Positions 8,600-58,757 of a stretch of 64,000 nucleotides of DNA are shown here, in pieces (position 1 is the stretch's first letter; each line of letters begins with the position of its first letter). This stretch comes from Asterias amurensis (taxonomy: Eukaryota > Echinodermata > Asteroidea > Forcipulatida > Asteriidae), in assembly GCF_032118995.1 (NCBI RefSeq), contig NC_092649.1, positions 20,521,832 to 20,585,831 of the forward strand, given 5' to 3'. The position numbers and the translations under genes were made by a program. The notes beneath the pieces were generated by a model. It was given only the letters and a program-made list of their open reading frames with translations, was not told where the DNA came from and searched no databases.

Positions 8600-9367
8600 T
8601 CCATCCATACATCAGAGGTGCCAAGTCCAGAGGCCAGCTATGCGTGAGATTTTTCAAAGCTCACCACCACCCCCCCCCCCCCCCCCCGAAAAAAATTGCA
8701 AGTTTTAGAAGGCCTTTCAAAATCACCGCCAAACTTTTTGAAAAAAATTGCAGAAATTTAATTGTGGACTAAAAAGTGTTCCAAAATGTATCAAAAACCT
8801 CTTCAGAATAAATAAAACTCACATGAGGTACACAGGAGATGTTGATAGTTAATGTGGAGGTACGATTGTGTCAGATTTCCCCCTCCCCCCCTCCCCCCCC
8901 CCCCCCCCCCCCCCCCCCCCGCCTGTTGTGTCTTCGCTAGTGGAGCGCATTTAACGAATTTGCTAAACGAATCGGGGAAAAAATCGACTAAAAATGATGT
9001 CAAAATCCTCCGCTCACTTCTTCTGCCTGTTGTGTCTTCGCTAGTGGAGCACATTTAACGAATTTGCTAAACGAATCGGGAAAAACTTGACGCAATAAGC
9101 GTTTTGCGCTCTGCCGAAGCTGAACCTGCTGGGTGAGCAAAAGCGTGCGCAATCTGCAAATTTGTGCTCTGTCTGTACGGCAGCTCAATCTGAAGATTGT
9201 GCAAACATTGTAGATTGCATTTTGTGTACACACGAGCGTGATTTGGCAATGCATTGTCGTAAAAAATCGGTCTGGCCCCAATGCGTGAGAAACTGGTTGC
9301 TGTGCGTGTGAGCGTGAGACAGAGCCCAAATGCATGAGTCTCACGCCTAATGCGTGAGACTTGGCAG
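8600..9367. repeat. Dispersed repeat with C-tracts, also present in RAG2L intron 1
   Basis: Starts CCAAGTCCAGAGGCCAGCTA and includes CACATGAGGTACACAGG, CTAGTGGAGCGCATTTAACG and GCGTGCGCAATCTGC blocks plus two long C runs. A related copy lies at 12440-13100. An internal 75-bp direct duplication (GCCTGTTGTGTCTTCGCTAG at 8921 and 9024) is visible. Open frames here are proline- or glycine-run artefacts. Confidence 0.7.
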
Positions 9368-9692: not shown

Positions 9693-9867
9693 GACCTTCC
9701 ACAAGCACATTACTTCGTACGGAATTTTTTCTGAAAATGTTTTGGGGCCTAACTATATTTTTTTACCATAATTATTGTAGCCTTAATTATTTTCCAAACA
9801 ACATCTGGGGGCGACTTTGCTAGGGGGCGACATTGGCTGGGGGCAGCATTGTCAGGGGGCGACTTTG

Positions 9868-9872
9868 CTAGG
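9868..9872. repeat. 5-bp target-site duplication, left (RAG transposon)
   Basis: CTAGG, identical to 22742-22746. Five base pairs is the length made by RAG and Transib transposition. Confidence 0.9.
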
Positions 9873-9891
9873 CACAGCGAAAAATCACCCA
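9873..9891 (+). repeat. RAG transposon left terminal inverted repeat
   Basis: CACAGCGAAAAATCACCCA; the heptamer-like CACAGCG abuts the target duplication. Inward similarity to the right end fades after about 19 bp. Confidence 0.88.
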
Positions 9892-11669
9892 TGTGTACTG
9901 CAATACGGATAGCCGCGGCACGCTGCCAAGCTAGCGCGACGCTCATTGGCTGGCTCTCTGCTTTGCCTTGCTCGTGACGTCATGAGCGAGTGCGGAAGCC
10001 AACCCGCACGCACCGTGGCCAGCCTGTACAGCACCACGCACGCGGTCGAGCGAGTAGCCATGACAACTTCGCTGACACCCGCTCTGACCTTTCCTCGCTT
10101 ATCTATCTGCGGTTTTGCAAGAGTCCATAATTATGCAGGCCTTTTTCCAAGGCCGGAACGATGGTGCAATACGTTGTACACGTTGTATGTATGCATGGAG
10201 CAATGTGTGTGTTGGGTGTATTGTGCGACTGTGTGGACACGTTGTATGTATGCATGGGGCAATGTGTGTGTTGGGTGTATTGTGCGACCCTGTCTGCTTG
10301 CTTGTTTTACTAGTGGATGTTTTAATGCAATGATAGAAAGACAAGCAGACCCAATTATTTTATATCTCCATGGGCTGTGGGTGTCTTTTACATGATTCTT
10401 ATGCTGATTATCATTCAAAGCTAGCTCATAATTATTTAAAGTTTCCAAGTATACACGATACGAAATGCTAAGAAGTCTAATGGATTGATAGGCTTTCTAG
10501 GTTCACTTTTATTTATCCTGATGGCCACCTTTCCTGTCTATTTTATAAATAAAATAATTCACTCGCATTGATTTGCCAGTGTTCTGTGTCAATTCCCAAT
10601 TATTGGTTTACAATTGTGTAGGGCTAGGCATCACGTGTTTTTAAAGGTTTACATTCGTTGTTTCTTACACACTGTTATATTTTTTTCAGTAATATTGTAT
10701 CATGTATTGTTTGTTGAAATCTTGGCCGAATAAATAATAATAATAATATGGATCTATAACTTGAAGTTGAAGTCCATACTCGATTGCTTTTCGTTTTGTT
10801 GAGAGATATAATCCAGCAGCGTAAATCATGTTTTATATTCAATTAATATTATTTTATTTGTTTGTATGTTCTATCATGAGCATCAGCATGGACGAATCAA
10901 ATCACATAAACAGTCGAATGTAGATATCCCGATGCGACAATGTACGAGTTACCCCCCCCCCAACCCCAACACTAATTTTTTTTTAAATAAAATCAATCAT
11001 TATTTTAACCCAGTGACTTTGGATGGCGTATATTCATGTAATGTTAAATGTCATTCTTCTTAGTCTTGTGCGCGAATTCTTGCGCTTTTTTTTATGTCAG
11101 CACTTTGAACGCTGTGGAACATCGCAATTAATAAGAAGGTGGTCTTTTGGGGGGTATAATTATTTCAACTATATTGCTTAGTTCGGGAAGTAGCTGTTAA
11201 AGTTTTACCATCGTTTCAAAGTGTGCCGCTTCCATTTTTCATCCGTGTCCCCCACTGTTTTCTACATCCATGATTAGCGCATAGTTCCCTTTTGTAGAAT
11301 TGCCCTTCCCCCAATTCCTTCGCTGAAAAATCAACTATACATCAATATTTCAGTGAAGTGTGACTCAATTTTCCAGGTTTGGAAGTAAGTTCGAGTTTAT
11401 TACCAACTTTTCATGGCTTATTGGGTGTTTGCCATCCCAATGTACACCTGATAATTTATTTTCCCCCGTTGCCCTCCCCGGCCCCCACCATATTCGCAGA
11501 CGGAAAACAGTTTATTTGCACCCTTATCATCTCATTGGCTCCCGAATAAACTTGAAGCATGGGGCAATAAACTAATTTTAAGATTGTTGGAACTCACACC
11601 ACTTACTTACACGGTGACAAATTCAGGTCTTAGTGTACTTTTAAACTTAAGACATTATAAATTACAAAA
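9873..11669. other. RAG transposon left subterminal region, no gene
   Basis: Contains a palindromic TGACGTCA at 9975-9982, a two-copy 59-bp tandem duplication near 10180-10298 (unit with GTTGTATGTATGCATGG), and otherwise unstructured AT-rich sequence. The RAG2L promoter and 5'UTR should lie in its right part. Confidence 0.6.
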
Positions 11670-14600
11670 ATGGCCGAGCAGGAGCAGGAGGTTGACCATG
11701 GCCGGTACACAGATTTTGACTATATTCCCCTTAAAGCCGCGAAAGACAGCAAACGAAAAGTTACAAGAAAACGAACTCAACTGGAAATGAAGATTGGAGA
11801 AAATTACCCAGCAGAAGGTCACTGCTCAATAACGTGTTCATCACCAGAAGAAAACTGTTATCGCGTCTTGTCTTTTGGCGGAGCGCGAAGGAAAGAGGAG
11901 AGAACGTGGCAGGACGGAGCAGCAATAACCGAGTTTATCATTTCAGCTGACGATGAGGATGTGTCTATTAGCTCCATAACAACTTGCAGGACAAAAGGTA
12001 AAAAATAACACAATACAGATATGTAGCTGTAGTCCGAAATTAGTATACGAAAACAATTTAGAAAAAGTTTTGTTTAATAATAAAATAATATTCTAGAAGG
12101 CAGTATCTCAAAATAGAAAGAAAGAAAAGTTAACCCAAATGCAATGGATAAAAGTTTCATCATCTTACAACGAAGTTTTATAATTTGGCAAAAAGCTTAA
12201 GTTTGGAAAAAAAAAGAAGCAAGTTAACAACCGGAATAAACAGAAAACCGTTGTTCATTGCTTTGAATGCGTTTTTACACACTGATGAACCAGTGAGTTT
12301 GGGTGATTTCGTCGGGTTATCATCCGACACAACTTTAAAACACGAAAAAACAAAATTACTTTTAATTTGCCGGACGCGAAAGCACACCACAAACCAGATG
12401 CAAATGTTTGCTATTATACTTATGTCAAAAGGTTCACCATGAACCACCAGGTGGTTCCAAGTCCAGAAGCCAGCTATGCGTGAGATTTTTCAAAAAGATC
12501 ACCTACCTCCGTCCGCCCCCCCCCCAAAAAAAAAAAAGAAATTGTCGCCAAACTTGTTTCTTAAAAAAAAAAGTTGCAGAAATTTCATTGTGGACAAAAC
12601 GTGTTCCAAAATGCATCAGAAACCTCTTCAGAATACTTCAAACTCACATGAGGTACACAGGCGATGTTGCTGGTTAATGTGGAAGTGCGATTGTATCATA
12701 TTATTCCCCCCCCCCAAAAAAAAAAAACAAAAAAAAAAATGTCCAACATCCTCCGCTCACTACTTCTGCTAGTGGAGCGCATTCAAAGAATTTGCTCAAC
12801 GAATCGGGACAAACTTGTGCGCAACAAACGTTTTGCGCTCTGCCGTATTTCAACTGAACCTGCCGAGAGAGCAAAAGCGTGCGCAATCTGCCAATTTGCG
12901 CTCTATTTGTACAGCAGCTCCAGTTGATGATTCTGATAAACTGCGTGCAATCTGCAGATTGTGCAAACTTTGTAAATTGCGTTTTTGTATACACACGGGC
13001 GCGATTTGGCAATGCATTGTCGTTTGAGAAAGAAAAAAAAATGACTCGGAACCCGCAAAAAAAGCATGCGTGCTCGAAAATTTGCGAGCATGAAGCTTGA
13101 GCCCACATTTAAAGCCTTACTCTACAATCTGAGGAGTTGTTGTGGTTATATCTCAATTTCTTTCTTATTATAACTCTTCTTTTCGTTTCTTTTTGAGGAG
13201 GGGGGAGGGGCAGGTAAAAAACTAACGAAATTTCACCCTCTTTTTAGGGCAAACAAAAAGGGAATTCCGTTTCCAAACGAAGAAATCACATCCCCATGTA
13301 GTGTTAGGAACAGACATTTCTTTGTTTGCTACACATTTCATTCAATGATCATATTATGTTTATTTCCTAGGAGGAAGTCTTCCACCGCTCCACGGTGCTG
13401 CAATTGTTGATCTCGGCACAAAGCTTATCATGTGGGGCGGTCTCGATCTCAATGAGTACAGGTGTCGAGATGACTTACTCGTCATCACAGAACAACATCA
13501 AAGAAGAGGATCAGCCCTGTTTCAGATAACATATGTAGAAACTCTTTGTCCAAAAACACCGTCCAGACAAGGGCACGACACGCCACATCAAAGCGGCCCA
13601 GTTCCTTCAGGTAAATAACTTACATATGTACCCCCCCCCCCCTGCATTGAGTGTCCTTTTGAAGACCACATCCCTCCCAATAATCAACATTTCTTTTTAG
13701 AAGCGACAAACTCTTTCATATTAATATTTTACAAACCCTCAAAGCCCTTCATCATGCCTTGAGTTCACCCCAAATGTCTGTATTTTTGAAGACTATAAAT
13801 AGACTGTCCCTACTTCCATGTTTTTTCCCTCTCTATGTTTCTTTCGTCAATACGAGGTGGTTCCTTTTTCTGGTATTATTTTAACTTGATTTTGGAATTA
13901 TTATTTAGAGACAAAGTACACAAATTGAAGATTGGTGTGGACAATTCATTTAAACTATGTACAAAATTTATTCAAATATATACAAATCAATATACAAATA
14001 TATACAAATAAAGAAAGTAGCAATCTTCTACCAACAGACTAGCTGGGGAGGGAAAAAATGACATGCTGAGTGAAAACTGATTGATCACAGATCAAAGATC
14101 TGTAAAATTCTGCATAGACATTCCACCTCAATGTCATTATTTCCCTCATGTAGATATACAGAGCTACTTTACTGAATACATAGCTGCTTGGAAGTGGGTT
14201 AGCTGGTTTAGGTAGAAATGGTTTGTAGTACAAAAATAAACACTTTACTGAATACATATAGCTGTTTGGAAGCGGTGGGATAGTTGGTTGAGGTAGAAAT
14301 GGTTTGTAGTACAAAAATAAATACAGTTCTATAAAATGTACAAATGTACAAATTTTTATATAAAGCAATATATACAAATAGAACAGGAACAATGGGAAAG
14401 CAGTTATTTGTACTTTATCAGTGCAAGCATGCATAGAATTTCATTCAAAATCTTGGGAATGAAGCAGATAAAGGTATTGAAAAAGGAAGATCCATTTGAA
14501 AACCACATTCTTTATTTTGTGTAGCACTTTTTGATGTATGTATGTACATGTACAATGAACATGTACTACAAATCGTTCACTGGGCATGTCAAGTTTTTTT

Positions 14601-15485
14601 TAATGATTTGCATTTTTTGGTTTGTTCTTTTTTACAGGAAGAACAGGGCACACATTGACGAGAATTGCAGAAACTGATAAAGCTCTTCTGTTTGGAGGAA
14701 TTAGTATGGGACAGCGAAACAAAGGCTTTGGGTCCAGATTTTGCAACAGCTGCAAGGATGGCAGGTTTTACATTCTGAACACAGAAACTTTCGAGTGGCA
14801 GCACGTTAAGGTGCCTCTGATTACATCAAGGGCATATCACTCCACAACATGCATCAGCAAAGATTCAGAGTATGTCATAGCTTTGATTGGTGGAGTTGTT
14901 TTTGATGGAAACCTACCCAGCCACCGGGAAGCACTGAGTGAAGTTGCTATTCTCACCATGGACAAACAGTTTAATAATTGTACCTTACAAGAATTGTCCC
15001 TAGCCCCCACTGCACCAAATACTCGGGAAGTTTTTCTGTCATCCCATGCCACAGTTGTGCACAACAGTAGCATAATTGTAGTTGGTGGAATACAAACTAC
15101 TACAAAGGAAGTACAAAACAAAGCACCAAAAGCTCTAGCCACAGCCTACCGTATAGACTTGCCTGGTAAACAGTATGAAATTCTCCCTAAAACTACTTCT
15201 GCACCTATTTTGTTTTCAACTTATGGCCATTCTCTCCACAATCTAAAATCAGACAACACAATCTTAGTACTTGGTGGCAGCTCCAGACAAATTTCTTTGC
15301 TCACTGACAGAAGCTTCGAGCCAGAACCCTGTGATTTCATCCCTTGTACAATTATTTCTTCTTTACATCTTAATGACACAACCTGGATTCAATGCGACAA
15401 ATGCAAAAAATGGTACCACACACATTGTATAAACCTAGATAAAGTACCAGATGGGCAGTATTTTTGCTTTAGTTGCAAGAAATAA
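11670..15485 (+). CDS. RAG2L: RAG2-like protein (kelch propeller and PHD finger)
   Basis: Cofactor of the RAG1L transposase; RAG2 proteins stabilise the synaptic complex, and their PHD finger reads histone H3K4 methylation. Three exons join in phase: 11670-11997, 13371-13610, 14638-15485 (471 aa). Six kelch Gly-Gly pairs at residues 70-71, 132-133, 209-210, 274-275, 339-340 and 402-403 predict a six-bladed propeller. Residues 421-469 form a PHD finger with all eight ligands visible: C421, C426, C442, C445, H450, C453, C466, C469. Vertebrate RAG2 is about 527 aa, and amphioxus ProtoRAG RAG2L is reported to lack the PHD, so this matches echinoderm-type RAG2L. The basic N-terminus (KRKVTRKR, 29-36) could be a nuclear signal. 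Splice sites are consensus. A candidate poly(A) signal AATAAA lies at 16101. No frameshift or internal stop. Confidence 0.93.
12440..13100. repeat. Dispersed repeat inserted in RAG2L intron 1
   Basis: Related to 8600-9360 over most of its length (CCAAGTCCAGAAGCCAGCTA, CACATGAGGTACACAGGCG, GTGCGCAATCTGC blocks; C and A homopolymers). The exons are not affected. Confidence 0.7.
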
Positions 15486-16300
15486 TTGACAATTTGATGT
15501 CACAATAACATAGTGCTTATACAAATCACACATATCGGTTGGTCATTCCTTATACAGACCCAACACAGAAATAATTGTTTGTTTAACTATCTCATAAATT
15601 GACTTTATATTGTAAAGCCATCCATGTCAGCAAATGAACCGATTTTTTCATATGATAAAAAAATACAGCAATGCTATGTGTACGTTTTTGTATATAATAA
15701 TTAACAAGGCCATCTACCCTATTCATTATATATAATAATTATGCATACATATCTGTGTTCTCAGTTCAAATATGAGGTATTTTGAACCCATAAAATTTCA
15801 CGCATTGCCCATAAACATTCTAACAGGTCATGATCATTTCCATTGAAATCAGGTCTAAAGAAATTATTCATGGGCATGTGATATCAAAGAACAAACCAGT
15901 TTGAAATAAGTTCTTGCTGTTATGATTATATATTACTTTGAGTCAAAAGATTAACTATACATGTAAGTTTTGAATAACAACAATTTTTGAACTTAACTTG
16001 TTTGCTACTAGCCATGTGTCATGATTGAAAATAATTTATTCTCAAGTATTGTTTTCCAGTATAGGTAAGGAAAAAGTATTGCTGTAATTTCATTAGTTTA
16101 AATAAAATGGACAGTCATTTCTTGAGTAATCATAAAAGACATCTGTTCTCACTTGATGTATCTCAACATATGCACGAAATAACAAACCTGTGAAAATTTG
16201 AACTCAATTGGTTGCCAAGTTAAGTTGCGAGATAATAATGGATATTTTAGTGAGAAACACCTTTCGCAAAGTAAAAGGAAAACCTTGCGATTCCGAACAT
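15486..16300. other. Convergent 3' intergenic region of RAG2L and RAG1L
   Basis: 815 bp, AT-rich. AATAAA at 16101-16106 suits RAG2L, and its reverse complement at 16035-16040 suits RAG1L, so the two transcripts may overlap at their 3' ends. A truncated TTAA-family-1 MITE lies at 16144-16245. Confidence 0.6.
16144..16245. repeat. Truncated family-1 MITE inside the RAG transposon
   Basis: Matches the inner block of family 1 (CACTTGATGTATCTCAACAT, AACAAACCTGTGAAAATTTG, GCGAGATAATAATGG) but lacks both termini. Confidence 0.65.
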
Positions 16301-19300
16301 TTATCTTTGACAACTCCTTGCGTTATGCCCAAGCTCATTGCAGTTGGAGCATTGATACTTTCTGGTCTTAACATGGCTAATTCGACGTAGTTTTGGGCTT
16401 GTGTATAACCAGTGGTACCAGATGATGTCTTTAAGTGATTGGGACTCGTCTGTTTTCCGAGAGAAATGTCCTCGGAGCTCCCTAAATAATTTATTAGCAG
16501 CCTCGTTGCCTTCGCCACTGATGGTGCCAACAGCTCCTGGCCCTTCCGGATCTTGGATTATCTCCTGTACATGCTCGATGATCTTATGAAGATAGTTAGG
16601 CCAGCCAACATAGGTAAAGTTGACCAGCAAAAGGCGGCCCATCTTAACAGCTTTGTCCTTGTAGAGGCATACATCTTCCGGGTTCGGATGGGTTGAGCGA
16701 TAAACTTTTCGAAGAAAGACAAAAATGTTCAAAATTTCCTTTAACTTCTGCTTCCTATCCTCATCAGGAATCAAAGAAAGGAAATTGTCAACCTTGGTCT
16801 GATTGAACAAGTCACGAGCAAAGTTGCCTGGCATCATAAGTTTGGGTACCAAACCAATCGTCGCCGTTAAGTTGTCGTTGAACCGCTTCTCGGCATCGTC
16901 AAACATGGGTTTGAGATCTCTGGTGATGTCCCAGCTTTGGCAGCGGGCAATTTCGCATATAATAACTTTCTTGAAGAAATTGCCCAAGTTGATGTCAGCA
17001 TGGGTTGCATCAAGGAGCTTCTGTTTGGGGTCAGATCTAAGTACTGGATAAGACTTTACACCCCTGGCAACTTCCGACAGTTCAGCAGCAGAAACATTAT
17101 CGGGGTTGACCTGGAGGTATTGGGCAGTGGCTTTGGTTTCCTCATAGCTGCGTGAAATGCAGAAGCTGCCCAACTCGCTCTTCGCCATCTCCTTCGTTGC
17201 TTGGCACAGAGTGCAAACATACCTCGACCCACTCCCCTGCAAACCGCCGTCTGCTCGATCCAACTTCTCATCTATCATGCTGTTGAAGAACTTCAGTGAA
17301 TGTCTCCTCCATACAGAATCAACATTCACTGAAAGCTCTCTTCCTCGGAGCACCTCCCGATCATGCTCCATACCTTTGAGCAGAACAACAGCCGACGATC
17401 TATTGTTCTCATCCCCTATTGCCTCAATGAGGGGCCGAGTTATGAAGGTGGAATCAGGTGCATCGGGCTCATACACCGTAACTCTCTCCCCATCCTTCTC
17501 CACCTCGCACTTGATTATTGCAAAGGCTGCCCGGAAGGCCTTGTCTGGCAAGAGACGATCCCTTGCCGCCTTAATGATGGAAACATCTCCCATCCCATCT
17601 GCACCGTCCTTCACAGTTGTGATGACAAGGTGATCTCCTTCGGGGTCCAGTCCTACCTTGCTCATGCCCTCAGCAATTTCTGGATCCAACTCCTCCAGCA
17701 TCTTAGCAAGAGCATGAGAGTACGGCCAAGACATAGCTTTCATGTTCGGGAAAGGGGTTTCTAAACCAGGGAAGTCATCCTCATTAAGGTTAACTGGGTC
17801 AAAGGAAAGCTCACCAAACTCAACATGCTGCGCTTGTCCAACCTTAACCGGGGTATGGTGGATGACGTCCTCTCCTCCCTGCAACCTAAACCTGACACTG
17901 CCTGGCATAAAGGTTTTCTCAAGTTCAGTGAGGACGTGCGGGGGTTTGAGGATGTTAACTCCTTTGGACTTCAGCCTTTGATACTGGGCCTGGTAGTGTG
18001 CCTTTGATGTCTTTGTAGTGACCCTCATCGCAAGACAGTCTTCTGCAGACAGGTGTATGGTTTCCTGCTTCCAGGATGTTAAAACCTTATGGAAAAAAGA
18101 ATAACAAAAATATACAATATAAGTTTGTTGTTATGATACAGTAGTCTAATAAATGACACATTAGATAACAGACTCAAATTCTTTAATGTACATGTAAGGC
18201 ACTCTTTTGTTTGGTAAGGCATACTTATGTTTAGCTTATCTCATAAATGAAATGAATCATTCCGAATTGAACATTAAAAAGAGCGAGAGCAAGATAATGT
18301 GAAGATCAATCTATTTGTGCTTCACATTTCAAATAAAATAAAGAACACATTTTTTGTTTACATCAGGACCAATGATTTGCTTCGATCGCAGAAACATGTA
18401 TAATTTGCAGAACTTTCCCTTTCGAAACTAAAAAGAGGATTTAAGTTTGTTGTAAAAAACATATGTGTACAGTGTGAAAAAGAAATTTCAAATTTTTTTT
18501 TTTTTCGTGTTAAGCCAAAAATGAAATGAAAACAAAAACTATTACATGTCATTTTAAAAGAAGGTTGGTAGGTGGATAGCTTGTTTTTTTATGTAAATAG
18601 TTTTAGTGTGTTCTGGTTTCTCACTTCAATTTTGTTAAATTCTTGTTGAATTGGTGATACTTAACATAATTTGTTCTCAGTAAAATTATTTTTTATTAAT
18701 ATCCTCCCCCCAGAAAAAAAATTATTATTTGTTTTCATTACTTTTATTGGATATAAAAACAACCTTTTCTCTATTTATTGTGTCTGAAACTAAAATCCAT
18801 GGTTTTTTGTTAACGGAATTTGCACTTTTCGGCAACCAAAAGTGATTGACCCTAATACAATGAAAAATAAGCAACATATTAAGAAAGGGGGAAAAAAATA
18901 CCTCGTTATATCTTGAGTCACCAGATCCGTGAAGGTTTTCAGTGAGCAGGAAGTAAAGAAGATCCAGCTGGTTCTCTTTCTGCCTACTACAGAAGTCACT
19001 AATGAAGGTCGATGCCTCTTGCGTCCGCTTACGTGCATAATCGCGCCTCACATCCTTCAAACTGGCTTTCACACTCCATACTCGTTTCTTTCCTTGAGTT
19101 GCGGGTGCAGGGTCTGGAGCTGTTTCTTTGAAAATTGCCCTTGTAGCAGTAGAAAGGCTTGGTTGAGGAGGAGGCATTGATGAGCTGCCTGCTTGCAGCT
19201 CTGGGGGTGCACTGGTTGATGAGGACAGGCCTGCCTGCAGCTCTGGGGGTGCACTGGTTGATGAGGACGGGCCTGCCTGCAGCTCTGGGGGTGCACTGGT

Positions 19301-20214
19301 TGATGAGGACGGGCCTGCCTGCAGCTCTGGTGGTGCTGCACTGGTTGGCAGGGACGGGCCAGCTGCTGCAAACTTGGGCTGAAGTAGTGACTTATGTGTT
19401 GCATGAATTCTACACACCGAACAAGAAGAAGTATGGGATTGGAACTTCCTGATCTGTGGAAGATATCCTCCATACGGCTTGCCATGCTGCATGGAAGTAT
19501 GTGTTCGCTTCACCTGTAGTCTGTATAAAAAAAACCATAAAATTATGAAAGAAATTATTAACACTGATTTAAAACTGAAGGAAAAAACGAAAAAACTAGA
19601 CATCATATGTTTGTGAAAACTATGGTGAAATATATTTGAGTATAGATTATAGCATTTTTAACTTTCCATAAAACACAAAAACAATTGTGTGTTGACGTCA
19701 CCATGAAGTCATTTCAAAATTCACAAAAAATTGCCAATATCTAACAACCTACCAAGCTTCATTATGATCACACGTACTTTGGAGGTATTGACTATAAAAA
19801 GTGCACATGTGATTTCATGTCGTGTGACCCTAGATGACGTCATTGATCTGAAACTTTACACATATGATTGCTGCCTGACGATCAAGTAAAATAGTAATAA
19901 TAAAAATAATAAAGTCTTGGTGAAAACAAAGGTGGTTTCGGCCAACATGTAGAAACCCCCAATTAAGCTTGCAAAATTTTAAGCGACTCAGCTAAGTTTG
20001 TATAGAAATCTTAACTCAAAAATAATTACCTGCATTTATTGCACAAAAATGATGGATGAATGTCCACCTGGTCTTCATCTACATCCAGATTGTACACTGC
20101 AAGAAGCTCCGTCTTGTGCTTTGCTAACTTGGACCTGTTCTTCGCAGATGGGGTGATCTGACCACAGATCCTACATATCAATGCAAGGGCATTGATGTGT
20201 TCCTCCATCGTCAA
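16301..20214 (-). CDS. RAG1L: RAG1-like transposase/recombinase
   Basis: DDE-family recombinase that binds and cuts the CACAGCG ends. Three exons join in phase: 20214-20030, 19520-18902, 18085-16301 (862 aa). The N-terminal zinc region has C14/C17, H53, C58/C61 and C95/C98. Residues 121-178 are four 14-residue Pro/Ser repeats (APPELQAG) where vertebrate RAG1 has its RING/zinc-finger dimerisation region. The nonamer-binding-like segment starts about residue 206. Core: catalytic D431 (DGMGDVS), D632 (THAD) and E796 (GEGNE), zinc ligands C559/C562 (CTLC) and H768/H773, and the YHWLYTS motif near 825. The tail ends in a CCGHC zinc knuckle (C847, C850, G854-H855, C860), typical of invertebrate RAG1L and absent from vertebrate RAG1. 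No stop or frameshift. Start Met could also be Met3. Confidence 0.95.
19187..19335 (-). repeat. 42-bp coding minisatellite in RAG1L exon 2
   Basis: About 3.5 near-identical 42-bp units (GCAGCTCTGGGGGTGCACTG on the plus strand), encoding 14-residue Ser/Thr/Pro-rich repeats. The frame is preserved because 42 is a multiple of three. Confidence 0.9.
19690..19890. repeat. 200-bp module in RAG1L intron 1, repeated at 21000-21210
   Basis: Shares GCCAATATCTAACAACCTAC, AAAAGTGCAC and ATGACGTCATTGATCTGAAA with 21000-21210. Probably fragments of one dispersed repeat. Confidence 0.7.
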
Positions 20215-21739
20215 CCTGCAACATTAATTCAAGGCAATGATGTTGTTACAGTTTATGTGCATAAAAGTAGCTGGCCGTTAAAGTTAAACCCTAATCTTAC
20301 AGCAGAGCTTTAGTGCAGAGCTAGAGAACAGTTTCTGAAATAATGAAAATAAACCATTTTGATTCAAAGTCTAGAGCAAAGCCTAGTTTTGTTATTGAAA
20401 CCAAAGATGAACCCGACATCGTGTTATCACAACTACATGAGTGTACATTTGATTAAAAAATTACTCCCGTTTGATAACAAAATAACAATCACAAAGAATG
20501 AAATTTCTCCACCACAATTCTCCCCCACAAATTTGACAAATAAGTGTGTTCCCAAGTTTGATTAAAACAATATTTTAATGGACATTGTTATATTATAGCA
20601 AGTGAGTAAGAAATTTCTCCCCACAATTAGGGGGGAAAAAATCCACAAATTTGATAAATAAGTGTGTCCCCATAATTCAATAAAAATATATATATTCTTA
20701 TTTGTTATATATATAAAATATAAATTACTCCCGTTTGATAAAAAAATAACAATCACAAGAGACTGAAATTTCTCCCCCATCATAAAACAAAAAATAAACT
20801 AGACATGATTGCATTTGTGCACAAATGCAGAGCTGTTTCGTTAATAACAATTTAAATTTTGTCAACTGAATTTGAAATTTATTCTTTTTTTAAAGAAGTT
20901 ATGACTAATCCAGGCTATTAAAAAAAACAAATTGGATTATACCATGTTCTGATAGCAATTTATTCGTTAAAGGTGCAAAAATTGAAAAAATCATAAAATA
21001 TCATGTGATGACGTCACTATGACGTCATTTCACAATTCACGAGAGCTTGCCAATATCTAACAACCTACCAAGTTTCAACATAATCGCATAATTACTTAGA
21101 GAGTTATATTAGTTCAAAAAGTGCACCTTTAAGGCCGCGTCACGTGACCCCCAATGACGTCATTGATCTGAAATTTCACACATATGATGGCTGCCTGACA
21201 GTTAACGTGTGTGTAAAATTTGAAGTGATTACAAAAAACTTCACCACACACATCTTCAAAAAGTCCATTTTGATGAGTTTTCAACCTGCCGCTAGAGGGC
21301 GCCGTTGTATTTTGTGACGTCATTGGTATTTTTTTTGAACTGCCCACCCTTGCCACGCACTAACATCGTTAAAAGCAACTTCATATCTTTTTCCAATTTT
21401 GAATTAGAGGGCCACTTCCGGTTTCGACCGGAAGTAGAGGTCATGTGAGGTCACGCACACGAAACAAAATGAAGACCTTATTTATCCCTCCCCAATCCCG
21501 CAAACAGAAACCTACGGTCTCTTGTGGCTGATTTGTTATAAATTTTCAAACACTTAAAATACAACACCTTTAAGATGACGTCACGTGACTTCTGATTATG
21601 TCATAATGACATCCTTGTTTCGCAATGATCATTGCACCAATACCTTTCATCCCTGAAAATTTCATTGCAATTGCTCTTTGGGAACATTGCAAATCAGCAC
21701 TTATATGAAATTTTTCTGAAGACGACAAATAAAAAAAAA

Positions 21740-21774
<35 letters not shown>

Positions 21775-22741
21775 CTTTAACAAAAACAAGAGCTGTTTCG
21801 CTGCGCTTCGCTACGAAACAGCTAAAAAATGCACAAATTTACAACAATCACAAGTGAATTATATATTATATATGTATATACACAAATTTTATCAACGTCC
21901 CAAAGTTTGATTAATAAAACCTAAACTAACCAATCACACAGTAGTACAGGACCAGGAGAGTTAAGAAAATTCTCCCATCATCATTTGTAAAAAAAAAAAC
22001 CAAGAGAGAGATTAGAGAACAATATTGAGAAATGTACCCAACATTTGCTTTAAAAAAAATTACAGGAGATCAACCAGAAACTTCTCCTAACCCGACGTTT
22101 GATAAAGAAAACATTGCATATTAAACTCTTTACGCCCCCCCCCCCCCCAAACTGTGTATTATAAACAAACTCTTCATTCCCCCGAAGGTCAACAACCCGC
22201 CCGCGGTCAACTCGTGCACGGAATCGCATCACGTATGCGCATCACGCATGCACCTTGCGCACCTCACGTACGCACTTCAAAAAACCCAGTCCCGTCCCAT
22301 GAATAAAATTGACGATAGCTTGTACTTTGACCCCATGCATGGAAACACGTTGCAAACGAATCTTGAATGTATCATGAACACTTTGAGACACTGACGAACT
22401 TTCTCACTAAAAATGCAATGAAAATATGACTTACCAAACTCCAAAATTCAGGTACGTATCTGCAAGTTGTTGATGTTCAGGTTGACGTCAACAATATTCA
22501 GTAAAAAATAGAAAAAAACTGCCAATTCGTACGATTTTGGGATCGTTCTTAAGAGCGTAGGCTACTCTGTCGAAACGATGCATCGGAAGAGGTCGAGACG
22601 CTAACCACGGCGCATGCGCAGCAATTTCATTCATAAAAACTGCCATAAAAGGAGCGTATCCGTGACGTCATAATCAAGCGCTTGGTGAGGCCCTCTCGTG
22701 GCCGCACCGTTACCAAGCCGTGTGGGGGATATTTCGCTGTG
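20215..22741. other. RAG1L upstream and right subterminal region, no gene
   Basis: AT-rich repeats with GATAAATAAGTGTGTCCC-like phrases (20520-20780), a dispersed repeat about 20820-21830 bounded by AGAGCTGTTTCG words (including the hairpin AGCTGTTTCG...CGAAACAGCT at 21790-21823), a short (AAT)n at 21740-21767, a C run at 22136, and TGACGTCA at 22663-22670. No coding region is supportable. Confidence 0.6.
22723..22741 (-). repeat. RAG transposon right terminal inverted repeat
   Basis: Read inward on the minus strand: CACAGCGAAATATCCCCCA. Followed outward by the CTAGG duplication. Confidence 0.88.
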
Positions 22742-22746
22742 CTAGG
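22742..22746. repeat. 5-bp target-site duplication, right (RAG transposon)
   Basis: CTAGG, matching 9868-9872. Confidence 0.9.
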
Positions 22747-22882
22747 GGGGCGACATCGTTTGGGGGCGACATTGCCAGGGGGCGACTTTGTTTCAACCTG
22801 GGGCGAGCTGGGTAGGGGGCGACTTTGCAGGGGGCGACTTTGTTGGTGGCGAGCTTGTCAGGTGGCGAGATGACCAACATTC

Positions 22883-23556: not shown

Positions 23557-26500
23557 ATGGCTGATGATTGCTACGATGATGAAGTTTTACTAGAGGTAAA
23601 TAATCTTGCGGATTAATCGTAGATTACCCCCTCACTTGTGTTGTGGGTTTTTTAGAGAAATCTCGATCAATCATCAAGTCGAGCTGTCAAATGAAATCAA
23701 GTCCTATTTTCGGTCGTCGTGTGAGAGTCGAGTGTATTCATGTTCTTTGGTCTATTCAGTATGTCCAATTAGTCTTTTGTTCCAACCCTACTCACCCCAA
23801 ATCAAGGGATGGAGATCTGGATCAAGGAATAAGATCAGGTTGGTCTTTGCCCGTCCACCTTCTACTTCTACTTCGCTACTCCGCAAAGTCCCATGATGAT
23901 GGGATATCACGCCAAGATTTGACCGATGAAGCAACTAGGGTAGATTAAGAGTGGATTTGAACAGGGAGAGCGGGGCAGTGACAACAGGCACTGGAAGATT
24001 GTTCCATGCAGGGGTAATTCTTGGAAAAAAAGAGTTTTTGTAGATGTTGGTGCGGGGAGAAAAGAGATTACCTCTGCTCTGGTACCTGGTTCGAATCCCA
24101 CCAGGGGGCACGTACGTATGTGATGATTACGTGGATTGGGCTTTAATATTTCAGTCCCGACTATAACCGAAGCTTCCTGACTTTGTCTTTGCTCGCCCAG
24201 TAAATTAGATAGTAGTTGCGATCGCACCTGCATGCCTCCGGCTGCTGAACAGGTTTTGATGTAGTTGCGATAACGTATGAAGTTTATTACTGTATGAAGT
24301 ACATATCTCCTTCATTGTATTTGTTATTTTATTTTTCAGAATTCTCCACTGAGTCAATATCTCAGAGAAGCTTGTCCTGACCAGGAGTTTGACACTGTCC
24401 CCTCTGCACGCAAGTCTGTACAGCCTGTAGTGGAGAAGAAAATCTATACCGTCAGTGGGTTTGTTCATGCCGCTCAGGTAAAATATGAAATGCTTTGCTC
24501 AAATTAAAGTCACTGGACATGTTTTGTAATTTTTCAAAGTCTAAGATCAGTTCTCACTTGGCATATCCCAACATGCATTAAGTAACAAACCTGTGAAATG
24601 TTGGGCTTAATTGGTCATCGAAGTTGCAAAAGAATAATAGACAATATAGAAATGTTATGACTATCTCTAATGAGTTGGGGTGATTCTGAAAAGAACCGTT
24701 GGCGTTGGTTTCAACTTGACGTTTCGATCAGTATGCTCTGATCGTCTTCTGGAGAAAACGCATCACCGAGCTCCATTTCCCGCTCTCCCGCCTTCGTGCA
24801 TCACCAAGCCAATCCACCTCCACAGCAGCATCAGAATCCAGCTTTTCTCCAGAAGACGATCAGAAACTAACTGTTCTTTTCAGAATCACCCCAACTCATT
24901 AAAGATAGTCCTTACATGGTGTTACCGCAAACCTTTCTATATCGTATTTCCACCATGCAAAGTTTCAAATCCTACTTAATAATAGACAACAAAACACCCT
25001 TGTTGCATAACTGTGTGCTCTTTCAGTTGCCTGAAAAAGGCTTCAGGTCTGAAGATAACATTCTACCTTTTTTTATCATCTTGCATGTCTTGGGTCTCTT
25101 TCTCTCTCGCTTAGGAACTACTGTTGAAGTTCTTCCAATGGCTTTATCCTTCAGTGATTGAACACGTAGTAAGTATCATTAGTATTTCTTTCTCATGTTT
25201 TCCCCATTGGTCTTAGTCTGAAGTATCAGTAAGGGTATGGGGAGGGCTGTTTCATTTCTAACTCCTGACGATGCCTAGTGCAGGCTAGTCGTTCTTTTAT
25301 TTTAATCCACAAAGAGAAAGTTGTACCCAATTTTCTACTTCGTCAGGTGGTACATGTACTCAATAAGCAGGACTGTTCTTTTCAGAACTATTAGTCTCCT
25401 GAATTCTGAAATCTGCTCTGTGACAGTAAAATAAATCACAGGACAAGTTCTCAAAGATAAGTCTACACAGCAAAGCTAGAAAGTTTGATTGTGCAATAGA
25501 AAACACGATATGATGTTTTGCATTGCATAATTGTTGGTCACTAATTCGTCATGCTTGTTGAGGTGAAGGTGTGGACCTTTAAAATTTCTAGACCTGTTGG
25601 TCTATAAAAATGATCTTCAAGTACAGACACCAGTAGGATTAGAAACTGCTTATTTTTGCAAGCTTACTTATATAAATACACTTAGTTGGTATTGCAACTG
25701 TCAGTCATTCTGAACACAATTTGTGTCACCGTATTTAAATATTAAATTATTTCACTTCAAGGTCAGGCTATAGGCCTGATGAAGAATGCTTTTGTTTTGT
25801 TTTCTTTTGTATCTCAGACAAGTCATTAATATATCGGATACTGATGTTTTGTCTTTTCAGAACGCCACGTTTGTTCCAGAGTATTCGGCACTGGCTTTAG
25901 AGAGTAGATGTTTATTTGACTCAGATAAGCAGATTGTGAGCGCTTATTATCCTAAGATTGGTTTAAGCAAATCTCATGGCGTATCACTAGCTTCGTACAA
26001 CAGGATATGGTTCTTTGGTTTCTGGTAAGTTGGGCATCACTGACCTTTTTAACGGGCCAGCCTACTCGCAAATTCTCGTATTAATAATAGTTATAATCGT
26101 TTTTTTATGTTGAGCTTTACACTCTCAAAGCGCTTCCAACACTGGGCCCTAGTTCATTCCTTAAACCATCTCAGCTCCCTGGGGAGTATACAGCCTGTGA
26201 ATAAATGCGCTACTCAACTAAATCAATCACAAGAACCATCTCTGCCCTCACAGGTACCCATTTACTCCTGGGTGGAGAGAAGTAACTATCATGACTATAG
26301 TTAAGTTTCTTGCTGAGGGACACAAGTGTCACGATCGGGACTCGAACCCACACTCTGCTGAACAAAAACACCAGAGCTTGTAATACCAGCCCAAAGTGGT
26401 TAACATTTTTCTGTTTTTTGTTCACACAGCTGTCTGTTTTTTCTGTGTATCGACCTGGGTGCCTGTGTCCATCTTTTACCAGCAAGTTTAGCGTCTAGTC

Positions 26501-29500
26501 TTCCACACCTACCTGTAGTACTCAGTTTTAATCCCGTCTTGCAAGTGGCTTGTTATTTGTACACGCCTTTCTTAATCCATCTCATATGGACCGTCTTCAC
26601 CCTGAAGAGGCGCCACAAGAAAGGCATAGGATGTATGAAGCAATGTCTGCGGCTGTTAGATCAACAGGGGGCGCTATTGAGAAAGTGTATTCGCTACATA
26701 CAAGAGGTGGAGGTGATCTCAAGAGGATTTACAATGTAAGTAAAACAGACGGAGAGAGCCCAGCGTATATATTAAAGGCAGTGGACACTATTGGTAATTG
26801 TCCAAGACTAAACTCTACAGTTGGTGTATCTCAAAATATGCATAAAATAACTAACCTGTGAAAATTTGAGCTCAATCGGTTATCAAAGTTGCGAGATAAT
26901 AATATAAATAAAAAAACACCCTTATCATGCGAAGTTGTGTGCATTTAGATGGTTGATTTTGAGACCTCAAGTTCTAAATCTGAGGTCTCGAAATCAAGTT
27001 CGTGGAAAATTACTTCTTTCTCGAAAACTATGGCACTTCAGAGGGAGCCGTTTCTCACAATGTTTTCTACCATCAACCTCTCCCCATAACTCGTCACCGA
27101 GAAAGGTTTTATGCTAATAATTATTTTGAGTAATTACCAATAGTGTCCACTGCCTTTAAGCCTTGTTAACACTAACCCAGGGAATTACCGCCGGCCCTTT
27201 CACACTTGGAATCGCTTTACCCCTGATCTTACCTGGCATATGGTCATACCCCGGTGAATAGCTACCCCTGCTCTGGAGTAGGGATAAGTCATTAAGTGGC
27301 AAAAACCTAGGGTATTCTTAAAACGCGCAATCATAACGTTTTGGACCTAGGTGGGGACGGTGTGAATGTTTGCCAGGGTAACCGTGGGGCAAAAAACCTC
27401 TCTGGACCTCCCGATGGCCTATTCCACAGGGATAAGAGATACAATGTAAAAACAGCTGTCGTCAAGTAAAAACTACAATAGGCTAGTATACACACCACTT
27501 TTCAATTTTCCCTCTCATGCCAATGGGCCAGTACACACATTTTCCTCATCTGTGTTAACTGGTTGTACATAAATTTGTCTCCAGGGTTACTCCTTATACA
27601 CCAATCGTTCGTCTTGAAAACTCAACATCTTCAACGACACGTCGACAATGTGCCGTTCTACGCCAGTCATGTTTCACTGCAGCAAAGTGTCAGTTCAGTG
27701 TACTACGTGATGCAACGTTGGCAGGAATGAGGGAACTTCCGTTACTAGCAGAGATTGACCACGTCAGCAATTATTTGGCTACAGTGGACTTACAGACCAT
27801 AGCTCCTTGGTTTAAGGTAAAGAATATTACTTTTACTCGTACCCAGAACCCATTTTTCAAGTTTTGTACAACTTACATTGGTTACTAGTTAAACACAGAA
27901 TAATTTTCAAACACCTAGTTTCGACATTCAAATATACCTCCTAAATACCTCACAGAATTAATCCACGACTTTTGCCTACTAACAATTTTTGTTCTTGCTT
28001 GCAAAATCTTCTCATTCCTTTTCCAGCCACCACCAAAGCATATGGATAAAGGGCCTTTCACATTGCATCTCCTGAATTCGGGAATGCACTCCCAACAACG
28101 TGAAAGAAAGCTCCCTTCTAGAACAGTTTAAGTCTTTTTTTATAAAGCCATTGGACCCTTTCGGTACAGAAAACAAAAATAAAAGATCACAGATTTACAA
28201 ATAACTTACAGGGTTTACGGAAGGTAGTGGTGAAAGACTTCTTTTGAAATATTGTTCCATGAAATGCTTTACTTTTTGAGAAAACAGTAAAACAATATCA
28301 ATTCTCGATAGCGAGAATTACGGATTTATTTTAAACACATGTCATGACACGGCGAAAAGCGCTGATACAAGGGTGGGTCTTCCCGTTCATTTCTCCCGAC
28401 TCTGATGAACGATTGAGCCTAAATTTTCACAGGTTTGTTATTTTATATATAAGTTGTGATACACGAAATGTGGGCCTTTGACAATACTGTTTACCGAAAG
28501 GGTCCAATGGCTTTAAGACAAATCTCTTTGTGAAATAACTTTTACTTTTCATTGTGTGCATTTGAACCTCAAAGAAATAAAGACTTATGAAGGATTCATA
28601 GTTTGAGAAATGATGATACTGGTGTAAATGTTTTCATAATTTTAGCACTCTGAGGATGATGATGAAGAATTCCAGGACACTATTGCTGAGTTTACTAGTC
28701 ATTTCTCACTCTCTGCACTTAAGGTAATAACTTACATGATATATTTGAATCAAAATGAGTCGTTTGTATTAATCAGGCATAATAATCTTGCTGCTTAAGT
28801 CTGACTTTTGAATTTGTTGCCCTTGGGAAAAATCAGAAAAACTGTGATTAATTAGCCTAAAAAGACTATACAACCCTGTACTAAATGAACATGGACCAAA
28901 TATCACGCCTGATTATTCCGTCCGTGTGAAGACTTTTTTCTTTCTTTCCTTAGGCTCTGGACTTAGACTTTGTACATAAAAATTCTGTGCAAAACTTCCC
29001 TGTCGAGATCTATTTATATTTTCTACATTTTAATGTACGTATTTACAGGCAATGAACAGCCTCTTCTGTGAGCAGAGGTCAGAGTTCATACGAAGACTAG
29101 TATTGAGTATAAGTCCTGCTGCATTATTACCAGATCAAACTATAGGTGAGTTAATCTTTCAACATCAGTTACAATACATTAATAAAGATTATTTAACTCA
29201 GAATATGGTAATTCTGTGAGCTATGCTGCAACCAGATGTCTAATAATTGCATAGAAAACTTCTGCGTTAGACCCTTATATACCCTGGGTACTGCACCCAG
29301 TTCTATACAATGTTCCTGCCCAACCATGGAAGCATGTACTCTTTACATAACAGGTGTAAAGTAGAATTCTAATTCACCTAGGCACTCAATCAAATAAATC
29401 AACATGTTTAAAGACACTGGACACTATTGGTAATTGTCTAAGACCAGTCATCTAACTTGGTGTATCTCAACATATGCATAAAGTAACAAACCTGTAAACA

Positions 29501-32500
29501 TTTGAGCTCAATCAATCTTTGAGGTTGCAAAAGATAAAAATGAAAGAAAAACACCCTTGTCACACAAAGTTGTGTGCTTTCAGATGCTTGATTTTGAGAC
29601 CTCAAATTCTAAATCTGTGGAAAATTACTTCTTTTTCGAAAACAAAGTTTCTTCAGAGGGAGCCGTTTCTCACAGTGTTTTATACTATCAACAGCTCCCC
29701 ATTACTTGTTACCAATTTAGATTTTATGCTAATAGTTATTTTTAATAATTACCAATAGTGTCCACTGCCTTAAGAGGTGTTAAATTTGAACCAGGATGTC
29801 CAGGATAAAGAATATTATTTTGTGTTACCCTTGCAACAATATGTGTGTAAAGCAATGAATGAGAGTACTTTCCTGAGTCCTGTGAGAAAAAAAATACAAT
29901 TATTTTTACTCTGGTGAGATTAGAATCCATGACCTTTATCACTCTAAAGCAGATTACTAAAATTCATTTTCATTTCAACTTGATTTCTAGATAAGAGTGT
30001 TCTAGAATCTTGGACAAGTATCGTATGTGGCGTCAATGACTCATGTGAAGCGAGTCTCGGCAAGCTACAGCGAAGTTATGACTGTCATCGGCAGAGACCA
30101 AGTCACAACAGAGAACAATTGCCCTCAGATATACAGATGCAGGCTAAGGATGGTGTATCGTCGCAGCATAGAGTGATCAATGCTGTTCGTAGTTTAAGAC
30201 TTCATCTGGAGGCAACTCTGAACAGGTGAGTTTTTGTGAAGAGCATATTTTAAAAATGTTTCATACAGATGGCTTGGATATCATCCATCAGAAGCCTAGC
30301 TGGTAGCTCAGAATGCCCTACCTCCCCAACTTTACGAAACAATCATGGCTAAGTGTCTTGCTTGAGGACACTAAGTGTCACAACCAGGACTTGAACCAAC
30401 ACTCTGCTGATCAAACATCAGAACTCCTAGGCCACAACAAGCCACATTATTATCTGCCTATGAGATGCATTTGCCTTTAACCCCCCTTATTGTTTTAATA
30501 AACTGTAAGCGTCGTCTTGACTATAAAGATATTTTTGTTTCTTTTGTCTACAGAGTGATTTCAGTTGAAGATGCTTTGGAAGAAGCTGATGGCTCAGTGA
30601 CGAAGGAGAGCAAGGTTGGATGTCTTACATCTGAGATGCTAGATGCTGTCAAAAGGGAGCTGACTGCATCTCAAGATTGCCTTCAAGAAGCATCCTCATC
30701 ACTGGAGAAGATGAATGACAAACATCAAGGTAAGAGGAAATTTTACTCAGTTTATCAAGACATCTTTGTCTTGTTCCTTATCACACTTCTCTATTATATC
30801 CTTGCGATACTCGCTGCCAAAACTTAGTTGTCTCCCAACTCCGACTGCCAATCAAGCTCAAATTTCCACAGGTTTGTTATTTTATGCATATGTTGAGATA
30901 CACCAAGTGAGAAGACGGGTCTTTGACAATTACCAATAGTGTCTAGTGTTTTTAACACACTTTTCTTGTTTGTATGAATAGGGTATTTTTTCACACTGAG
31001 TGGCCGAGTTGGCATAGTGGTATCTTTCCTGGCCTTCCACCTCTAGAACCCCGACTCGAATCACGCAGGGAGCACTATGTGGATTGGGTTTTCAGTCCCT
31101 ACCCGACTGCATGGTTTTCCCCGGAATAATTCTGTGGGGTTTTCCTCCCACATCTAAAACTGAAACTTCCTTCCTTGTCTTCTCTCCATTGGGTTCTTGG
31201 TTAGGATGGTGCCCAAGTTACTGTATTGAATGTCCTTGGCTTCACAACCAAAATAAATAAAATTAAAGGAAATAAATTAAAGAACCGTTTGTTAAAATTA
31301 ACAAAGCATTTAGAGTGCATCAGTTTTGGAACATTGGTTGTTATTTGATGTGTTTTCTACTATAGGTATGGCACACAGTCAAGATAGGAAAGATGATGCA
31401 GATAAGCAACAAGATGGGATTCAAGACAACAGAATTCCAATTCCGTTGCTACCGATGAGCACTGAAATAGAGTTTGATGACCAGGTAAAGCTTTTCTTTT
31501 GTTGAATGGTAACTCTATTAAATAACTAAAAGTTGATTCATAGATTGGTTTAGTCAACGTAATGCTGATTTAAAGGAACAATTATAAAGAAGGATACATT
31601 AAGAGTCACATGTGAAAGTTTCAGTTGAATATTAAGTGTCTACTTACTGAGAAAACAGCAAAAAACTTTCGCAGTATTTGAACAAGCATGTCAAGTCTGT
31701 CTACGTTTAGCAAGGTGACAGCGGGTACCAACCACATGTCTGGCCACAGCTTTCGCCAAGGGACACCAACCCTTACTTATCGTGGAACGATTAGAGTATG
31801 AATAATTATATATAAATTGCTTATATCATTATTGATTTATGTTTTAAGTAGTTTAAAATATATTGTAATCCTCATACAATGATCCCATTTGCAGGTTTTT
31901 GAGGCCTACACAGAGAACGAGCCATGGGAACGCTTCGATGAAGATGACTGGGGAGAAGGGATCTCAGAACAAGAAAAAGTGGGTATTTTTATCAGCAAGA
32001 ATTTGTTACCATTTTAATAATAATAATAGGTTCTTATATAGCACCTTATCACACCCTTGGGGCATATCAAAGCCCTCATTATTATTTGTTTTCAACAGGA
32101 TAAGCAGAGTAAGGTTTTCAATTATGAGACCCATTTATGTAGCATTTTCTAACGGTTTACAAGGTGCTACAGTGCAGTCAGCAGCCACTTCCAGAAACAC
32201 CAGGGCAAATTCCTTCTCTTTTCGATAAGTGCACTGGGTTCTTTTACATGCATTACACAACACATAGGACCATAGCTTTACGTCCCATCCAAAGGCTGGA
32301 GTAATAATGGTCAAGTGTCTTGCTCAAGTACACAAGTGTCTTGATCGGGACTCAAACCCACACTCTGCTAATCAAAAACACCACAGCTTGAGTTCAATGC
32401 TTTTATCCACCCTCATCAGCGACATGCCAAGAATTCAGTTTTAGTTTGTCATGTATAGATGAATCTTAGAATACAGTTTGAATTAGTTACTTGAATTTCA

Positions 32501-37585: not shown

Positions 37586-58757
<21,172 letters not shown>

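Follow-up and report, generated by a model that had tools for sequence, protein, structure and literature searches.

The genome of the sea star Asterias amurensis carries, within the 64,000-nt window that we analysed (the whole stretch G000:C2:20521832-20585831), a 12,869-bp RAG-like (RAGL) element at window positions 9873-22741. We conclude, with a probability of about 0.93, that this segment is a complete RAGL cut-and-paste transposon of the echinoderm TransibSU/RAGL_B kind and that its family transposed recently in A. amurensis. A first-pass annotation of the window had described a complete RAG transposon with inverted CACAGCG ends, a perfect CTAGG duplication and two open three-exon genes lying tail to tail, and we found all of these features in place: the ends are at 9873 and 22741, the target site duplication (TSD) borders both of them, and RAG2L on the + strand and RAG1L on the − strand are both whole, with GT-AG introns. 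The genes are convergent, and 815 bp separate their stop codons. The ends and genes of the element are as follows.

9868..9872, no strand: left TSD, CTAGG, 5 bp, read from the sequence
9873..9892, +: left terminal inverted repeat, CACAGCGAAAAATCACCCAT; its exact pattern was seen at the four ends of the two copies and nowhere else
11670..11997, +: RAG2L exon 1, spanned by the A. rubens RAG2L model P0045
13371..13610, +: RAG2L exon 2, also spanned by P0045
14638..15485, +: RAG2L exon 3 with stop; remaining kelch propeller and PHD finger (PF00628, kelch families)
16301..18085, −: RAG1L exon 3 with stop; catalytic core (D429, D625, E791, M684) and C-x2-C-x4-H-x4-C tail
18902..19520, −: RAG1L exon 2, holding an in-frame 42-bp tandem repeat at 19187-19347
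20030..20208, −: RAG1L exon 1, start ATG at 20208; 67% identical to Acanthaster residues 1-60
22722..22741, −: right terminal inverted repeat, reverse complement CACAGCGAAATATCCCCCAC; exact pattern likewise confined to these four ends
22742..22746, no strand: right TSD, CTAGG, 5 bp, read from the sequence

A second copy at an unrelated site

The evidence that carries this conclusion came from the genome (491,506,623 bases in 23 contigs, of which the 16,427-base C23 is probably the mitochondrion), which holds a second full copy (G000:C2:9150162-9162019). Copy 2 is 11,858 bp long, has identical ends, lies 11.4 Mb from copy 1 on the same chromosome and is bordered on both sides by its own perfect 5-bp duplication, CGCGA, a match expected by chance in about 0.2% of random pairs of flank 5-mers. 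The alignment of the two copies starts at the first base of the element and stops at the last, one base beyond being a C common to both sites. The flanks, compared over 2.0 kb to the left at both sites and over 2.0 and 3.5 kb to the right, showed no homology save three matches: a dispersed repeat of 148 bp whose distance from the element differs between the sites, a weaker inverted match in that same place, and one of 24 bp. Because a near-identical copy with a duplication of its own sits in unrelated DNA, exactly the unit 9873-22741 must have moved in the past. Segmental duplication or an assembly artefact could in principle have produced copy 2 without transposition, and the location of both copies on one scaffold would suit either; however, similarity ends at the element ends, the flanks are unrelated, each site has its own 5-bp duplication, and the assembly was built from HiFi and Hi-C data into 22 chromosomes (PMC10625585), so that we give this explanation almost no weight.

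Over 11,783 aligned bases the two copies show 61 substitutions (0.52%, hence 99.5% identity) in addition to 17 gaps, in keeping with the earlier suggestion of recent mobility. Substitutions fall on 21 of the 3,999 coding bases and on 40 bases outside coding sequence, that is 0.53% versus 0.51%. Heterozygosity of 0.96% has been reported for another A. amurensis individual, together with a split from A. rubens about 28 million years ago (PMC11090083). Since the divergence of the copies is below this heterozygosity, the movement was recent on the population scale: in substitutions, the two copies are less diverged than two alleles of an average locus, a relative statement with no claim to an absolute date.

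The largest gap is a 1,027-bp segment of copy 1:

20797..21823, no strand: dispersed repeat of 1,027 bp, without a counterpart in copy 2

Over about 620 bp this segment matches a C6 locus (L037) at 97% identity, the match being cut by the locus end. Its absence from copy 2 and the C6 match are most simply explained by a later insertion, so the repeat is probably a secondary insertion outside the ancestral element. It has GAGCTGTTTCG words near both ends and is possibly a non-autonomous Helitron-like element.

The ends themselves are well defined. In both copies, left and right share 17 of their 20 outermost bases and 12 of the outermost 13 (ungapped count), and none of 200,000 random 20-mers matched the right end equally well. 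Among the 1,223 CACAG...CTGTG pairs spaced 3-20 kb apart in the window, three have equal outside 5-mers; the element ends agree at 17/20 bases, the other two pairs at 11/20 and 10/20. Across the genome, where copy counts are lower bounds, the exact end pattern was found at four places, all of them the ends of the two copies, and so the boundaries are the transposon's own; this also answers the concern, voiced in the first-pass annotation, that CACAGCG ends might belong to unrelated elements. The left 200 bp and the right 500 bp each occur at two genome places.

Allowing up to two mismatches gave 65 matches (4 exact, a single one-mismatch place and 60 two-mismatch places), as compared with 24 for a reversed control. 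The idea that unrelated elements share these ends was rejected for the non-exact loci examined. Of 26 such loci (L019-L044, out of 61), 17 fell into three recurrent motifs (12, 4 and 1 loci): in the motifs of 12 and 4, similarity continues upstream of CAC, which marks them as interiors of other repeats rather than RAGL ends. The one-mismatch place, L019, showed no BLAST match to the element, and no non-autonomous derivative was found among the loci examined.

Host minisatellite DNA lies on both sides of the element:

9807..9872, no strand: 16-bp minisatellite, host target DNA running up to the left end
22746..22868, no strand: similar minisatellite past the right end, in two rows (22746-22790 and 22800-22868)

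With the two flanks of copy 1 put together, the minisatellite array is continuous, the one observation that bears on an empty site. A site within a minisatellite makes a chance CTAGG less improbable (about 0.5% per random 5-mer pair in 200-bp flanks), a doubt that is removed by the independent second copy. Both insertions lie within or beside tandem repeats, an observation of two cases; the copy 2 target holds CACAGCG ten bases outside the left end (L010 1981-2010), with short GCGCGATCGACCGATTGTT-type repeats nearby.

The end heptamer CACAGCG shares 6 of 7 bases with the recombination signal sequence (RSS) heptamer CACAGTG, a match that is weak once CAC is required (about 5% by chance, our estimate). 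By eye, no RSS nonamer was recognised at the element ends, and a TR5-like block was not found in the first 70 bases, where the longest word common to both ends past base 20 is 6 bp. This word, CCAAGC at offsets 53 and 56, was considered as the second part of bipartite RSS-like ends and set aside as too short. The CREB-like TGACGTCA, 103 and 72 bp from the ends, was likewise rejected as an end motif, with eight more occurrences in copy 1 and four elsewhere in the window.

Other parts of the window were also recorded. Dispersed repeats lie in RAG2L intron 1 (12453-13023, about 85-89% like 8617-9260 in the left flank) and between the gene tails (16146-16242, with nine further matches in the window). 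A vezatin-like host gene (24298-33229, +) has its first recognised exon about 1.6 kb downstream of the right end of the element; the sole match of this gene, from six pieced exons, is Acanthaster vezatin-like (39% over 72%). Positions 37880-39713 hold about 1.7 kb of (AAT)n-type simple repeat in which several frames are open, and do not form a gene.

The RAG1L and RAG2L genes and their relatives

RAG1L is open through its three exons, encodes 860 aa and retains all three catalytic acids. Pfam RAG1 scored 248 bits with exon 3 and 249 bits with the whole protein, and RAG1_imp_bd 25.7 bits (cut-off 23.3). Exon 3 scored 483 bits against amphioxus RAG1L (6b40) and at most 247 bits against vertebrate RAG1. 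A structure predicted for the RAG1L core from 20 aligned rows (the window sequence plus 19 of 44 hits) had a mean predicted local distance difference test (pLDDT) score of 85.3 and matched amphioxus 6b40_A first, with a template-modelling score of 0.82 by query length and 40% identity, followed by mouse and other vertebrate RAG1 chains and then HzTransib. D429, D625, E791 and M684 were placed by motif, and the same catalytic acids and methionine are present at the matching residues of copy 2. We take D429, D625 and E791 to correspond to mouse D600, D708 and E962, and M684 to mouse R848.

RAG2L is likewise open, with three exons encoding 471 aa that comprise kelch repeats and a PHD finger. Kelch families were matched, and GG pairs occur at residues 70, 132, 209, 274, 339 and 402, with one more at 110; the whole protein scored 28.0 bits with PF00628 (cut-off 24). 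Its sole PDB sequence match at E ≤ 0.001 was amphioxus RAG2L (6b40_M, E 4.6e-28). Ahead of the PHD finger, 5 of 32 residues (395-426) are acidic, and there is no acidic hinge. The motif WIQCDKCKKWYH resembles two-tryptophan H3K4me3 readers. The A. rubens RAG2L model has the same three exons and departs from them in a short insertion where exons 2 and 3 meet and in two residues close to the start.

In each copy the two genes have open frames (RAG1L 860 and 847 aa, RAG2L 471 and 471 aa), copy 2 RAG1L being 39 bp shorter within the in-frame tandem repeat of 42-bp units. In RAG1L, 5 of 574 residues differ between the copies, and 15 and 14 of 574 differ from A. rubens; in RAG2L the counts are 4 of 471 between the copies and 15 and 15 of 467 against A. 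rubens. With the three catalytic acids, kelch and PHD domains and open frames in both copies, the description of the element as apparently autonomous holds as far as can be read from its DNA.

To place RAG1L we used a tree of 39 rows, in which 7 of 44 hits (shorter than 495 aa) were left out and which was built without vertebrate RAG1, RAGL_A, C or D rows. The two copies grouped together; A. rubens joined them next (100), followed by Acanthaster (100) and by two more rows, one of them Lytechinus (100); both copies lie inside the asteroid clade (100), and bivalve RAG1L rows fall outside the echinoderm clade. On this sampling the tree has the pattern expected of vertical descent with movement inside the species. 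Convergent genes, a DDE core, kelch and PHD domains, CAC inverted ends, a 5-bp duplication and the echinoderm grouping of RAG1L together identify a RAGL transposon, for which we infer the label RAGL_B.

Older members of the family have left broken relics:

G000:C4:16510547-16511318: RAG2L exon 3 pieces
C4:23174569-23177100: partly doubled RAG1L core with stops
C7:12896381-12898277: RAG1L N-terminal exons and only the first ~45 residues of the third exon

RAG1L exon 3 has at least seven genome matches, comprising the two full copies, four in the broken C4 region, all with stops and with DNA up to 88.6% identical, and one place on C7. RAG2L exon 3 has at least six, comprising the full copies and four pieces at C4:16.51 Mb. 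No end-like match with up to two mismatches was found within 400 kb of any relic. These relics indicate that earlier RAGL copies lived and died in the A. amurensis genome.

Recent movement and possible present activity

Several observations weigh against a complete and recently mobile transposon. Dispersed repeats in the window yield chance end pairs agreeing at 19-20 of 20 bases, so that end similarity alone is not telling here; none of the six best such pairs has a 5-bp duplication. There are only two full copies, and one of them carries the 1,027-bp insert upstream of RAG1L exon 1. Nonsynonymous changes account for 12 of the 20 changed codons, not significantly below the neutral expectation of 74% (P = 0.115, with the transition weight set by hand). 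The grouping of the two copies to the exclusion of A. rubens received a Shimodaira–Hasegawa-like approximate likelihood ratio test value of 88, below the 95 mark, and the partial predicted fold of RAG2L exon 3 (mean pLDDT 63) was too poor to be used.

A different reading is that RAG1L and RAG2L form a domesticated host gene pair, the terminal-looking repeats being remnants or coincidence. Sea urchin RAGL genes, for which ends have not been identified, are suspected of being domesticated (PMC9885083), both genes here are open, and the A. rubens annotation includes the two proteins, on contigs of equal length (18,069,988 bases). However, a domesticated locus would be single, fixed and without mobile ends; here two copies with equal ends lie between two different perfect 5-bp duplications in unrelated flanks, the exact ends were found nowhere else in the genome, and coding and noncoding bases differ equally between the copies. 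We consider domestication very improbable.

A closer question, which divides the transposon reading rather than opposing it, is whether the element is already a recent fossil that jumped within the species and whose copies no longer transpose, through silencing or through unseen damage such as promoter loss or a bad residue. The copy number of two, the insert in the 5′ region of copy 1 RAG1L, the earlier relics and three core residues of copy 1 (M395, K503 and Q561) that are shared neither with copy 2 nor with A. rubens all favour it, but both copies keep intact frames, intron borders and ends, and the differing residues include none of the three catalytic acids. We judge fossilisation a serious prospect whose chances fall just short of even. 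Present-day activity of the transposon is plausible.

RAG1L and RAG2L proteins of this family recognise CAC ends, and the 5-bp duplication results from staggered joining (PMC8289069, PMC7204232). By analogy with the family, two RAG1L and two RAG2L subunits would pair the CAC ends, nick 5′ of CAC and release the element by way of hairpins formed on the DNA beside it; both 3′ ends would then be joined to a GC-rich target with a 5-bp stagger, and gap repair would leave the duplication. A hydrophobic residue at the R848 position activates transposition, and invertebrate RAG2L is described as lacking the inhibitory acidic linker (PMC7204232). In the A. amurensis element, the methionine at this position and the absent acidic hinge may leave strand transfer unrestrained, while the PHD finger might read chromatin and direct the complex there rather than shut transposition off. 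Our paper search for R848M turned up nothing.

More tentatively, and with the odds leaning against it, we suggest that a RAG transposon with a PHD-bearing RAG2L is still moving in a living deuterostome, and that the two insertions, being younger than alleles typically are, may be polymorphic among animals. If true, transposition supported by a kelch-PHD RAG2 could be studied in nature; the PHD finger alone would not have ended mobility, and the vertebrate loss would rest on other changes, the acidic hinge and Arg848.

V(D)J recombination has its origin in an element of this sort, and amphioxus ProtoRAG, the one whose activity is demonstrated in the cited papers, lacks the PHD finger of vertebrate RAG2. 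A young, intact two-copy element with a PHD-bearing RAG2L in an accessible sea star offers native ends, native proteins and living individuals, with which one can test directly what vertebrate features put an end to transposition.

Comparison with known RAG systems

We found no description of the A. amurensis element among the openly available papers examined on RAG in Asterias or sea stars; one review that names both RAG and Asterias (PMC13428168) was set aside, as it only cites the genome. The closest known elements are TransibSU-1_PM and TransibSU-2_PM of the bat star Patiria miniata, which share three exons per gene, short inverted ends with RSS-like first 7 bp and a 5-bp duplication (Kapitonov and Koonin 2015, PMC4411706). 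The TransibSU copies recorded from P. miniata are incomplete, and a RAG1L transcript is known from Asterias forbesi (PMC4411706). The Patiria copies were assembled from contigs, with RAG2L deleted in one, a second incomplete and the TransibSU-2 interior incomplete, whereas A. amurensis has two continuous full copies. The ends of TransibSU-1_PM are reported to be identical over 13 bp; here 12 of these 13 bases agree, one fewer than full identity. RAGL target duplications favour GC (PMC8289069, PMC7204232), and CTAGG, CGCGA and the CCAGG of TransibSU-2_PM (PMC4411706) fit this preference.

The first-pass annotation had likened the element to ProtoRAG-type elements. Convergent gene order, CAC ends and a 5-bp duplication are indeed shared with amphioxus ProtoRAG (RAGL_B), as are the RAG1L core fold and the CCGHC-type tail (PMC8289069, PMC7204232); the narrow amphioxus type does not fit, since RAG2L here has a PHD finger, the heptamer is CACAGCG instead of CACTATG and no TR5-like block was found with it. 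PHD fingers are reported in all invertebrate RAG2L except that of amphioxus (PMC7204232), whereas a 2025 preprint attributes the shut-off of transposition to the PHD finger and acidic hinge jointly and describes the two as jawed-vertebrate-specific (PMC11844651).

The proposed rarity of an intact element held for the wholeness of its ends, TSD and genes and less so for its singularity, given the intact RAGL elements with ends and duplications in Crassostrea virginica, Pinctada imbricata and the ribbon worm Notospermus geniculatus (PMC7204232). These protostome transposons resemble the A. amurensis element in their intact gene pairs, ends, 5-bp duplications, PHD finger and AAA at end positions 8-10 (PMC7204232); they differ in phylum and in an end consensus of CACTWMC... 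in place of CACAGCG. With vertebrate RAG1/RAG2 the element shares the catalytic triad, the RAG2 kelch and PHD domains and 6 of the 7 bases of CACAGTG; unlike them, it has mobile ends and duplications, no acidic hinge and a Met at mouse position 848. The A. amurensis element is thus an additional member of the RAGL/TransibSU family, unusually whole and young and not unique in kind.

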